NCBI RefSeq assembly: GCF_900108275.1
Contig: NZ_FNVD01000001.1
Location: 124,001 to 188,000, forward strand
DNA length: 64,000 nucleotides
Direction: 5' to 3'
Source: Jhaorihella thermophila
GTDB taxonomy: Bacteria; Pseudomonadota; Alphaproteobacteria; Rhodobacterales; Rhodobacteraceae
The notes under the pieces were generated by a model that saw only the letters and a list, made by a program, of their open reading frames with translations, had not been told where the DNA came from and made no database searches. Positions within the stretch are counted from its first letter, which is position 1. The number at the start of each line of letters is the position of its first letter. Positions 56,233 to 59,563 of the stretch are shown here, one piece after another. A program made the position numbers and the translations under genes.

Positions 56233-57792
56233 TCAGGCGGCTGAGCCTTCGGCGCCGGGGCGCGATTTCTGCTGGCGCAGCGCGAGCCGGTTCAGCGCGT
56301 TGATATAGGCGCGCGCGCTGGCGACCACGGTGTCGGTATCCGCCGACTGGCCGGTGGCGATGAAGCCGTCCTCTTCCAGCCGGACGCTGACCGTGGCCTG
56401 GGCATCGGTGCCTTCGGTCACGGCATGCACCTGGTAGAGCTGCAGCCGGGCGTTGTTGGGATAGATCGCGCGCACGGCCTTGAAGGTGGCGTCCACGGGG
56501 CCGTCGCCATGTTCGGTGGCGATCGCCTCCTTGCCGTCCACCTCCATCTCGAGCGTCGCCTCGGCCGGGCCGCCGGTGCCGCAGATCACCTTGAGCGAGA
56601 CCAGTTCGAGCTTGTCGGCGCTGCCGTCGGCGGTGGCGCCCACCAGCGCGATGATGTCGTCGTCATAGACTTCCTTCTTGCGGTCGGCGAGTTCCTTGAA
56701 GCGGACGAAGATGTCCTTGAGCTGGTTGTCGCCCACCTCGTAGCCCAGCTGACGCAGCTTGTCGCGCAGCGCGGCGCGGCCCGAATGCTTGCCCATCACC
56801 AGGTTGGATTCGGTGAGGCCCACGTCCTCGGGGCGCATGATCTCGTAGGTGCCGGCATGTTTCAGCATCCCGTCCTGATGGATGCCGCTTTCATGGGCAA
56901 AGGCGTTCTTGCCGACCACGGCCTTGTTGTATTGCACCGGAAAGCCCGTGGCGGTGGAAACCATGCGGCTGGCGCGCATGATCTTCGTCGTGTCGATGCC
57001 GGTGCGGTAGGGCAGGATGTCGTTGCGCACCTTCATCGCCATCACGACCTCTTCAAGCGCGGCGTTGCCGGCGCGTTCGCCAAGACCGTTGATGGTGCAT
57101 TCGATTTGACGCGCGCCCGCCTCGACCGCGGCGAGCGCGTTGGCCACCGCCATGCCGAGATCGTTGTGGCAATGGGTCGAGATCACCACGTCGTCAATCC
57201 CCGGCACGCGCTCCTTCAGCATGGCGATAATGCGCGCGCTTTCCTTGGGCGCGGTATAGCCGACCGTGTCGGGGATGTTGATCGTGGTCGCGCCCGCCTT
57301 GATCGCGGTTTCCACCGCCCGGCAGAGAAAGTCGGGTTCCGTGCGGGTGCCGTCCTCGGGGCTCCACTGCACGTCATCGGTCAGGTTGCGGGCGTGGGAT
57401 ACAGAGGCCGCGATCGCCTCGATCACCTGCTCGGGCTCCATCTGCAGCTTGTATTTCATATGCAGCGGCGAGGTGGAGATGAAGGTGTGGATGCGCCAGC
57501 GGGGGGCGTGTTTCAGCGCCTCGGCCGCGCGATCGATATCGCCGAAGGCGGAGCGCGCCAGCCCGCAGATCACCGCGTTCTTCGCGTTCTTCGCGATCTC
57601 GGAGACGGCGAGGAAGTCGCCTTCGGAGGCGATGGGAAAGCCGGCTTCGATGATGTCCACGCCCATCTCGTCCAGCAGCGCGGCGATTTCCAGCTTGTCC
57701 TCGTGGGTCATGGTCGCGCCGGGGCTCTGTTCGCCGTCGCGCAAGGTGGTATCGAAGATCAGCACGCGATCTTGTTCGGTGGAATTGGTCAT
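56233..57792 (-). CDS. leuA: 2-isopropylmalate synthase
   Basis: LeuA condenses acetyl-CoA with 2-ketoisovalerate, the first committed step of leucine synthesis. The 519-residue protein has the catalytic barrel start FDTTLRDGEQSPGA, the metal-binding HCHNDLGMAVAN, GLGERAGNAALEEVVMA, and FAHESGIHQDG, and a C-terminal LeuA allosteric domain (about 390-510, GGPAEATLEMEVDGKE) for feedback by leucine. The ATG at 57792 is preferred over a TTG nine codons upstream. A leader peptide and competing hairpins precede it. Confidence 0.96.
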   Translation of the reverse strand: MTNSTEQDRVLIFDTTLRDGEQSPGATMTHEDKLEIAALLDEMGVDIIEAGFPIASEGDFLAVSEIAKNAKNAVICGLARSAFGDIDRAAEALKHAPRWRIHTFISTSPLHMKYKLQMEPEQVIEAIAASVSHARNLTDDVQWSPEDGTRTEPDFLCRAVETAIKAGATTINIPDTVGYTAPKESARIIAMLKERVPGIDDVVISTHCHNDLGMAVANALAAVEAGARQIECTINGLGERAGNAALEEVVMAMKVRNDILPYRTGIDTTKIMRASRMVSTATGFPVQYNKAVVGKNAFAHESGIHQDGMLKHAGTYEIMRPEDVGLTESNLVMGKHSGRAALRDKLRQLGYEVGDNQLKDIFVRFKELADRKKEVYDDDIIALVGATADGSADKLELVSLKVICGTGGPAEATLEMEVDGKEAIATEHGDGPVDATFKAVRAIYPNNARLQLYQVHAVTEGTDAQATVSVRLEEDGFIATGQSADTDTVVASARAYINALNRLALRQQKSRPGAEGSAA

Positions 57793-57825
57793 GTCGGTAT
57801 CTTTCGTGTCTGTTCCCAAGCCAAC

Positions 57826-57861
57826 TGGCGCGCAGGCGTCATCCTCTGAGCGGGCGCGCCA
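57826..57861 (-). promoter_or_regulatory. leuA attenuator hairpin 2
   Basis: On the transcript, TGGCGCGC (57861-57854) pairs with GCGCGCCA (57833-57826), a perfect 8-bp stem. It uses sequence from the loop of hairpin 1 and encloses hairpin 1's 3' arm, so the two cannot coexist. It ends 33 bases before the leuA ATG. No U-run follows. Confidence 0.6.
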
Positions 57862-57878
57862 AGGGGCACGCTCAGAGG
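57843..57878 (-). promoter_or_regulatory. leuA attenuator hairpin 1, overlapping the leader stop codon
   Basis: CCTCTGAGCG (57878-57869 on minus) pairs with CGCTCAGAGG (57852-57843), a perfect 10-bp stem with a 16-nt loop. The 5' arm contains the last codon and TGA of the leader peptide, so a ribosome finishing the leader blocks it, and one stalled at the Leu codons frees it. Confidence 0.65.
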
Positions 57879-57955
57879 CGGACTAGGAGCAGTAGGCCGC
57901 GCAGAGCCACGCCGCGGGCGGCGGTCGGGGCAGGGATATGCGCGTGGGTCGTCAT
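57872..57955 (-). CDS. leuL: leuA leader peptide (27 aa, leucine-rich end)
   Basis: The small reading frame begins MTTHAHIPAP and ends GLLLLVRL before TGA. The leucine run uses CTA-CTG-CTC-CTA and then CTC as the last sense codon, with two CTA codons that are rare in such GC-rich DNA. Six of the last ten residues are leucine. The ATG is 7 bases past a predicted -10 box, so the mRNA is probably leaderless. Ribosome stalling here when charged tRNA-Leu is low would control leuA. The frame was found by looking for it upstream of leuA. Confidence 0.75.
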   Translation of the reverse strand: MTTHAHIPAPTAARGVALRGLLLLVRL

Positions 57956-57962
57956 GGAATCC

Positions 57963-57990
57963 GTTATAGGGACGGCGCGGCGGAATGCAA
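57963..57990 (-). promoter_or_regulatory. Predicted leuL-leuA promoter
   Basis: On the minus strand TTGCAT (57990-57985) and TATAAC (57968-57963) are separated by 16 bases. The expected transcription start falls at or within a base or two of the leader ATG (57955). Confidence 0.5.
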
Positions 57991-58015
57991 AGACGGAAAA
58001 TCGCCGGATCGCGGC

Positions 58016-59407
58016 TCAGTTCTTCAGCGCGCCGTTCTCCCAGGTGCCGGATGCCTCCTGCCCCGTGGCATAGCGCATGGTGCCGGTCCCCTGACGCTTG
58101 CCGTTGACGAACTGGCCTTCGTAGACGTCGCCATTGGCATAGGTGGCCACGCCGTATCCGGTGATCTCGCCGTTCTGCCATTCGCCCTTGTAGCGGAAGC
58201 CGTCGGGCATCACGATTTCGCCCTGCCCGTGGCGCTGGCCGTTGACGAACTGGCCGGTATAGACCGAGCCGTCGGCATAGGTCGCCTTGCCCTGTCCGTG
58301 GCGTTTGCCGTCCTTCCATTCGCCTTCGTAGCGATAGCCGTCGGCATAGGTCATCACGCCGTAGCCGTCGTTCTTGGCGTTCTTGAAGTGGCCCTTGTAG
58401 ACGATCCCGTTGGGGTAGGTGGCGACGCCTTCGCCCTCGATCACTCCGGCCACCCAGTCACCTTCGTAGGTCGAGCCGTCGGCATAGGTGATCTTGCCCT
58501 TGCCGTCGGGCAGGTCGGCGCGGAACTGGCCTTCGTAGACTGAACCGTCGGGATAGGTGACGCGGCCCTGGCCCTCGATCTGGCCGGCGACCCACGAGCC
58601 TTCGTAGATGTAGCCGTCCGCGCCGACAAAGGTGCCCTGGCCGTGGCGGCGGTCGTCCTTGAACTGGCCTTCGTAAACGTCGCCGTTGGCATAGGTGACG
58701 CGGCCGTATCCCTCGCGCCGGCCGGCGACGAAATCGCCTTCGTAAACGTCGCCGTTGGGCTGGGTCAGCTTCCCCTTGCCGTCGATCTGGCCGTCTTTCC
58801 ATTCGCCTTCGTAGATCAGCCCGTCGGGCAGGGTCAGCTTGCCCTGGCCGTGGCGCTTGCCGGCCTTGACCTGGCCTTCGTAGACCGATCCGTCGGGGTA
58901 GGAGATTCGGGCTTGGCCTTCCTTTTCGCCGTTCACCCAGTCGCCGCGATATTCATAGCCGTTCGGGGTTTGCAGCACGCCGAATCCGTGATGCTTGGCG
59001 TTGTGAAAGCCGCCTTCGTAGCGATAGCCGTTGGCGTAGACGGCGATGCCCTGGCCTTCGATCACGCCGTCTTTCCATTCGCCCTCGTAGGTGCCGCCAT
59101 CGGCAAAGGTGATCTTGCCCACGCCGTGCGGCTTGCCTTTGGCGAACTCGCCTTCATAGACCGAGCCGTTGGGGAACCGCGCGACGCCTTTGCCGCGGAT
59201 TTCGCCCATCACCCATTCGCCGCTGTATTCGTAACCGTTCGGCAGCCGATAGGTGCCGTGGCCGTGCTGCAGCCCGTCCTTGAAGGTGCCTTCGTAGACG
59301 CCGCCGATCTCGTCCTGCGTGGTCAGCACCTGACCGTCCTGCGCCATGGCCGCGCCGGCCAGCGCGCCGCCGATGACGAATGCGAATGCCTTGCCCGTTG
59401 TGGTCAT
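58016..59407 (-). CDS. Secreted MORN-repeat protein (463 aa, about 19 repeats)
   Basis: After a signal peptide (AFAFVIGGALAGAAMA) the protein is almost entirely MORN repeats of 23 residues (G-Y-x-Y-x-G-E-F/W-x-x-G-x-x-H-G-x-G pattern), about 18 clear plus one degenerate at the C-terminus. Repeats ending in EGxF alternate with EGxW (for example YEGEF, YEGEW, YEGQF, YEGSW). MORN arrays form a long beta-sheet that binds lipids or proteins. Export to the periplasm or surface is expected. The start at 59407 follows AGGAAG. Function is unknown; it lies about 60 bp from the leuA promoter. Confidence 0.88.
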   Translation of the reverse strand: MTTTGKAFAFVIGGALAGAAMAQDGQVLTTQDEIGGVYEGTFKDGLQHGHGTYRLPNGYEYSGEWVMGEIRGKGVARFPNGSVYEGEFAKGKPHGVGKITFADGGTYEGEWKDGVIEGQGIAVYANGYRYEGGFHNAKHHGFGVLQTPNGYEYRGDWVNGEKEGQARISYPDGSVYEGQVKAGKRHGQGKLTLPDGLIYEGEWKDGQIDGKGKLTQPNGDVYEGDFVAGRREGYGRVTYANGDVYEGQFKDDRRHGQGTFVGADGYIYEGSWVAGQIEGQGRVTYPDGSVYEGQFRADLPDGKGKITYADGSTYEGDWVAGVIEGEGVATYPNGIVYKGHFKNAKNDGYGVMTYADGYRYEGEWKDGKRHGQGKATYADGSVYTGQFVNGQRHGQGEIVMPDGFRYKGEWQNGEITGYGVATYANGDVYEGQFVNGKRQGTGTMRYATGQEASGTWENGALKN

Positions 59408-59563
59408 GCGACTTCCTGCCATCCCTGTTGGCCTTGCCCTTTCGCGGAACCCCTAGACGTTAGGCGAGCGGACGAAAAGGGGCAACGCCTTTTGCCGCAA
59501 GTCCCTTTTCCTTCGGGCACGATCTGGTAAATGCGGGGCGGGACAAGAGGGCAAGAGGGCATC

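Follow-up and report, generated by a model that had tools for sequence, protein, structure and literature searches.

Enterobacterial leu and ilv attenuators combine a leader peptide carrying a run of Leu codons, a logic based on ribosome position and a terminator with a U-tract. In Actinobacteria, the LEU element described by Seliverstov et al. (2005; PMC1262725) places a leader ORF with a Leu run before leuA. Its base stem is formed by the Leu codons and the Shine–Dalgarno (SD) sequence of leuA, and an inner pseudoknot of the order A-B-A′-B′ or an alternative hairpin is built on this same base stem (PMC1262725). Mutations in the leuA leader of Streptomyces coelicolor were at odds with classical attenuation, as reported in the same paper, and the mechanism of the LEU element was left open by its authors in 2005 (PMC1262725). 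Among the Alphaproteobacteria, the trpL attenuator of Sinorhizobium meliloti (rnTrpL/peTrpL) is leaderless, attenuates transcription and gives rise to a small RNA (PMC10117765), and an alphaproteobacterial ilvB leader peptide is credited to Vitreschak et al. (2004) in a passage of PMC1273637. Rfam has no family for the control of leuA by leucine in alphaproteobacteria, and the literature searched yielded neither a description of it nor any paper on a leuA leader from this class; outside this search lay the 2004 survey of proteobacterial attenuators by Vitreschak et al., which may mention one.

The region upstream of leuA was analysed in a stretch of 64,000 nucleotides, hereafter called the window, and in related genomes. 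The leader found there is read as a leader of the LEU-element type that responds to leucine by way of the ribosome and most likely acts on the initiation of leuA translation, a reading to which we assign a probability of roughly 0.6. As such, the element provides a concrete, testable model of translational control by a leader peptide.

Leader ORF, promoter and neighbouring genes

The gene, its leader ORF and the putative promoter are arranged in the window as follows.

56233 to 57792, minus strand: leuA, 2-isopropylmalate synthase (TIGR00973, 714.6 bits, over the cut-off; NF002087, 863.6 bits)
57800 to 57805, minus strand: weak SD-like GAAAGA of leuA, from the sequence
57872 to 57955, minus strand: leader peptide ORF of 27 codons, MTTHAHIPAPTAARGVALRGLLLLVRL, from the ATG at 57955 to the TGA at 57874–57872
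57884 to 57895, minus strand: Leu codons CTA-CTG-CTC-CTA, the candidate sensor codons
57963 to 57991, minus strand: promoter-like pair, with a −35 TTTGCA at 57991–57986, a 17-nt spacer and a −10 TATAAC at 57968–57963

The leader peptide contains codons for the end product of the pathway, as expected of a classical attenuator. A reading made earlier from the sequence only had this 27-codon ORF ending in four Leu codons; CTA-CTG-CTC-CTA and the final CTC are present, but GTC CGC CTC intervene before the TGA. Its proposal of a leuA leader peptide with Leu sensor codons was borne out in relatives, 26 of 29 of which (nearly all of different genera) carry a Leu-run leader upstream of leuA, with Leu found at the four sensor positions in 107–122 of 122 leaders. 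An in-frame ATG was present in 122 of 126 family leaders, and their median length was 28 codons.

In the window, exactly 7 nt separate the end of TATAAC from the leader ATG; a strict consensus promoter scan reported no site. Across the family, the −10 element ends 7–8 nt 5′ of the ATG in 94 of 122 leaders, and an SD-like motif is found at the leader start in only 6 of 122. Given this spacing and the near-constant absence of an SD sequence, the predicted leaderless start, which had been called probable on the strength of the promoter-like pair in the window, is a conserved property. Going by the conserved position of the −10 element, transcription would start at the leader ATG or directly adjoining it.

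In 72 of 122 leaders, His-Ile (or His-Asn) occupies residues 6–7 (57935–57940, minus strand, in the window), and the DNA for these residues is exactly CATATC in 54 of those 72, a conservation at the nucleotide level that lies far from the Leu run. Upstream of the leader, a gene at 58016–59422 (minus strand) encodes a long MORN-repeat-like protein with YEGEF/YEGQF repeats, and the −35 element of the leader begins about 25 nt past its stop codon. A match to the Rfam family BcKCsr2 within the leuA coding sequence (57103–57231, minus strand) scored 24.6 bits against a gathering score of 40 and is probably due to chance.

Conservation and range

The typical leader peptide ends in LLLLSRL directly before the stop codon, and its DNA is near-invariant (CTTAGCCGCCTCTGAGCGTGCC-N4-GGCGCGACCGCTCAGAGG...GCGCC); an ending of this type is kept in 26 of 29 relatives and across the class. 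Many of the 126 family leaders were gathered by a motif search on the C-terminal codons, and their shared peptide ending therefore reflects selection in part; the 29 relatives form the unbiased set. Searches with the family model returned seven matches outside the family, five of which immediately precede leuA in alphaproteobacteria of other families. With R2, a class-wide core model of the alphaproteobacterial leader, matches were found in 48 of 142 genomes. Of the 68 leuA genes sampled across the Alphaproteobacteria, 44 have an R2 match on their own strand 42–415 nt upstream, and there are almost no matches away from leuA. Phaeobacter inhibens and Paracoccus denitrificans are among the carriers. 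A scan of the phylum outside the class gave only four matches, near E 0.006, which were taken as chance, and searches against Rfam 15 at gathering score gave no match for the window, the distant alphaproteobacterial loci or the actinobacterial loci.

At one locus from another family (L332; G048:C1:208500-211500), the leader precedes a gene for an actinobacterial-type LeuA (MLRDPSTKYRPF...), and genomes of the same family related to this one have R2 matches too. The presence of the leader before an actinobacterial-type LeuA in one genome indicates that the element stays with the pathway even though the gene is non-orthologous.

Helices P1, P2 and P0

Three helices were compared across species, the arms of which are located in the window as follows.

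57869 to 57878, minus strand: 5′ arm of P1a (beta), CCTCTGAGCG; contains the stop codon and pairs with 57852–57843 in a perfect 10 bp
57843 to 57852, minus strand: 3′ arm of P1a (gamma), CGCTCAGAGG; from sequence, pair counts and class-wide covariation
57865 to 57869, minus strand: 5′ arm of P1b, GTGCC; pairs with GGCGC at 57860–57856, is present in the window MFE, is conserved in A1 and excludes P2
57854 to 57861, minus strand: 5′ arm of P2, TGGCGCGC; lies within the P1a loop and pairs with 57833–57826 in a perfect 8 bp, with covariation
57826 to 57833, minus strand: 3′ arm of P2 (delta), GCGCGCCA; no U-run follows it
57880 to 57888, minus strand: 5′ arm of P0 (alpha), TCCTAGTCC; overlaps Leu codons 3–4, with 8 of 9 positions pairing with 57822–57814
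57814 to 57822, minus strand: 3′ arm of P0 (epsilon), GGCTTGGGA; ends 21 nt 5′ of the leuA ATG

The perfect 10-bp stem that encloses the TGA and the perfect 8-bp stem formed from its loop and a downstream arm were both found as first described. The leader fold of the window is only modestly more stable than shuffled sequences (z −1.5), and the decision therefore had to come from comparison. Permutation of partners between species weakens all three helices, with z values of −8.9 for P0, −7.2 for P1 and about −7.8 for P2; reversed-partner controls ranged from −2.3 to +1.3 overall (−1.5 for P0), and the unproposed pairing of alpha with delta gave +0.4. Such permuted-partner tests do not fully remove shared ancestry, and the reversed controls share that ancestry too. 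An alignment of 34 sequences gave pair counts consistent with the three helices; presence of a P0 partner was the criterion for picking these sequences, and the 90% pairing of P0 among them is therefore not its prevalence. P1 is near-invariant inside the family, yet it covaries across the class, where five pairs are changed on both sides and the covariation score was reached by 0 of 500 shuffles. The sequence-only reading had named a lack of conservation of the small ORF or the stems in close relatives as the result that would speak against it; the leader was instead present in 26 of 29 relatives, and the three helices coevolve.

The two stems had also been proposed to be mutually exclusive, and this did not hold. 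The conflict with P2 is limited to the inner part of stem 1 (57869–57865 with 57860–57856), which is P1b alone, and from the sequence the outer 9–10 bp of stem 1 and P2 could coexist as an H-type pseudoknot. P1a and P2 are two interleaved inner helices that both coevolve and could form a pseudoknot, as in the LEU element. The loop lengths of the pseudoknot are mostly 6–11 nt, permissive by our own estimate, and the P2 loop is long at about 17–25 nt. The hairpin of P1a and P1b has a predicted mean of −22.1 kcal/mol, and the predicted gain from P1b is −8.3 against −18.7 for P2 stacking with the pseudoknot penalty still uncharged. In standard parameters this penalty is roughly 9 kcal/mol, after which the P1a+P1b hairpin and the P1a+P2 pseudoknot are predicted to be similar in stability. 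At two loci (L040 and L012) an extra hairpin or insertion is found between the 3′ arms of P2 and P0, and the length of this connector is flexible.

P0, which had been missed earlier, pairs Leu codons 3–4 and the next codon with a segment beside the ribosome-binding site (RBS) of leuA (TCCTTAGCC with GGCTAAGGA), and this helix between the Leu codons and the RBS region is the strongest mechanistic clue. Among members with a GCTAAG-type partner, the wobble base of Leu codon 3 agrees with its partner for T-A in 20 of 21, for C-G in 35 of 38 and for G-C in 3 of 4, and this agreement was not a selection criterion of the search. The wobble covariation permits synonymous mutants in which P0 is broken and then restored with the peptide unchanged. 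About 40% of family members are without a clear GCTAAG-type epsilon, and P0 of the window is itself weak, with one mismatch and two G-U pairs. Epsilon ends mostly 15–23 nt before the start and lies directly on the SD sequence in some members only; in more distant alphaproteobacteria a P0-like partner was seen by eye 25–40 nt before the leuA start, off the SD sequence. Codon choice in the leader is biased to CTT and CTC, both able to pair with SD sequences of the AAGG type: among the Leu codons within the final eight codons of the leader, about 45% are CTT (279 of 626), against 6.8% in the leuA coding sequence. At six loci from several genera (L068, L069, L080, L094, L141 and L143), a small cupin gene separates the leader from leuA or follows the leader directly, and in the cupin-containing genera epsilon sits at the start of the cupin gene instead of leuA.

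Regulatory output and comparison with known systems

Predicted accessibility of epsilon plus the SD sequence was 0.461 for the natural RNA and 0.522 after synonymous recoding of the Leu and Ser codons of alpha (p 2e-11). Predicted accessibility before the first gene was lowest in ribosome-free RNA and higher with a ribosome on the Leu codons, and these effects of the ribosome and of recoding favour translational attenuation. For the window, masking or recoding of alpha barely changed the predicted accessibility of the SD sequence. In the proposed mechanism, the ribosome-free RNA would hold the base stem P0 closed over the inner P1 hairpin or the P1a/P2 pseudoknot, and closed P0 beside the leuA RBS would hinder 30S loading, with leuA off. 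Under a shortage of charged tRNA-Leu, the ribosome on the leader would stall at the Leu run and cover the 5′ arm of P0 while leaving most of P1 free, so that P0 would open and leuA would be on; with plentiful leucine, the ribosome would reach the stop codon and depart, and P0 would re-form. Ribosome stalling, the sign of its effect on leuA and control at the level of translation are our inferences. The predicted SD openness is equal with the ribosome at the stop codon or on the Leu codons, and the role of P2 is therefore unaccounted for by the translational model.

Classical transcription attenuation would give P2 such a role, with P1 as antiterminator and P2 as an unusual intrinsic terminator without a U-tract. 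The geometry fits, as a ribosome at the Leu codons would permit P1 and one at the stop codon would mask P1 and permit P2, and P2 covaries. The absence of a U-run after the second hairpin, from which a non-classical output had been suggested at the outset, nevertheless proved general: none of 115 family members has a T-rich stretch after P2, taken as at least 5 T within the following 10 nt, and no T run upstream of the first gene exceeds 4 in these relatives, which makes intrinsic termination unlikely. Considering also the long loop of P2, classical attenuation appears quite improbable. An intrinsic terminator was rejected on the missing U-run in the 115 relatives and the lack of a terminator-like site in a scan, and strictly exclusive antiterminator and terminator hairpins were rejected because exclusivity is limited to P1b against P2.

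The missing U-run would suit Rho-dependent attenuation, the main rival, in which the position of the leader ribosome would set Rho loading before leuA or the pursuit of RNAP by Rho, with P1, P2 and P0 gating a putative rut site. Such a mechanism would use the shift in the P1/P2 alternative between a ribosome at the stop codon and one on the Leu codons, which translational occlusion leaves unexplained, and a like proposal has been made for other actinobacterial leaders that lack terminators (PMC1262725). P0, however, coevolves with a segment adjoining the start of the first gene, which Rho would not need, and we consider this explanation unlikely. For actinobacterial LEU elements, Seliverstov et al. 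preferred a structured RNA that is bound by a regulatory protein (PMC1262725); applied here, with translation of the leader incidental, this would fit the very high conservation of the P1 sequence beyond pairing needs in Rhodobacteraceae-type genomes, but the Leu residues at the four sensor positions and the leaderless spacing point to a translated ORF, and a protein site is very unlikely. That a small ORF and hairpins without function arose by chance would agree with the unremarkable single-sequence fold; set against class-wide conservation, the place upstream of leuA and covariation, it merits almost no credence. Translational control through P0 thus remains the preferred reading.

The leader-peptide features given by the sequence-only reading were largely upheld; beyond P0, it had overlooked that the leader ranges across the class and that it matches the LEU element of Actinobacteria. 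With S. meliloti trpL, the leuA leader shares an alphaproteobacterial leader peptide, an ORF at the RNA 5′ end (predicted here) and sensor codons for the pathway product, but its sensor is Leu and it has no U-run terminator. The enterobacterial leu and ilv attenuators, likened to it by description, share the Leu-codon run and the ribosome-position logic; unlike these, the leuA leader has no U-tract terminator and has a helix between the Leu codons and the RBS region.

Shared with the LEU element are the position before leuA, the Leu-run ORF, the order of elements, a predicted inner pseudoknot or alternative hairpin and the predicted leaderless start, and neither has a family in Rfam 15. At actinobacterial leuA loci, TANNNT is found 6–8 nt before the leader start in 61 of 72. 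Of 30 actinobacterial loci, 2 have an R2 match at the right leader site with E about 0.001 (105 kb) and 2 more have a weaker one, and a Nakamurella leader has the 16-mer CTCCTTCTTAGCTGCC in common with one alphaproteobacterial locus (L163). The permuted-partner test on actinobacterial leaders gave z −1.8 for the Leu run and −1.4 for P2, weak values that probably reflect too little sequence variation and were not used as support. Common descent with the actinobacterial leaders is suggested by the sequence comparison. That one ancient leuA leader was common to Alphaproteobacteria and Actinobacteria, with the Leu codons as both sensor and RBS-blocking strand and the translational attenuator kept despite replacement of leuA, is put forward as a tentative and rather doubtful possibility. 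The alphaproteobacterial leader offers an independent lineage in which the mechanism of the actinobacterial LEU element could be resolved. The two differ in the sequences of their helices, in the stop codon, which lies in the P1 5′ arm in the alphaproteobacterial leader and in the first-stem loop in Actinobacteria, in the base stem, which is often a few nt upstream of the SD sequence in the former and on it in the LEU element, and in the gene, which encodes a bacterial-type LeuA (TIGR00973) here and an actinobacterial-type LeuA there. The leader has the architecture of a LEU element in a different phylum, with a sequence and a stop-codon placement of its own.
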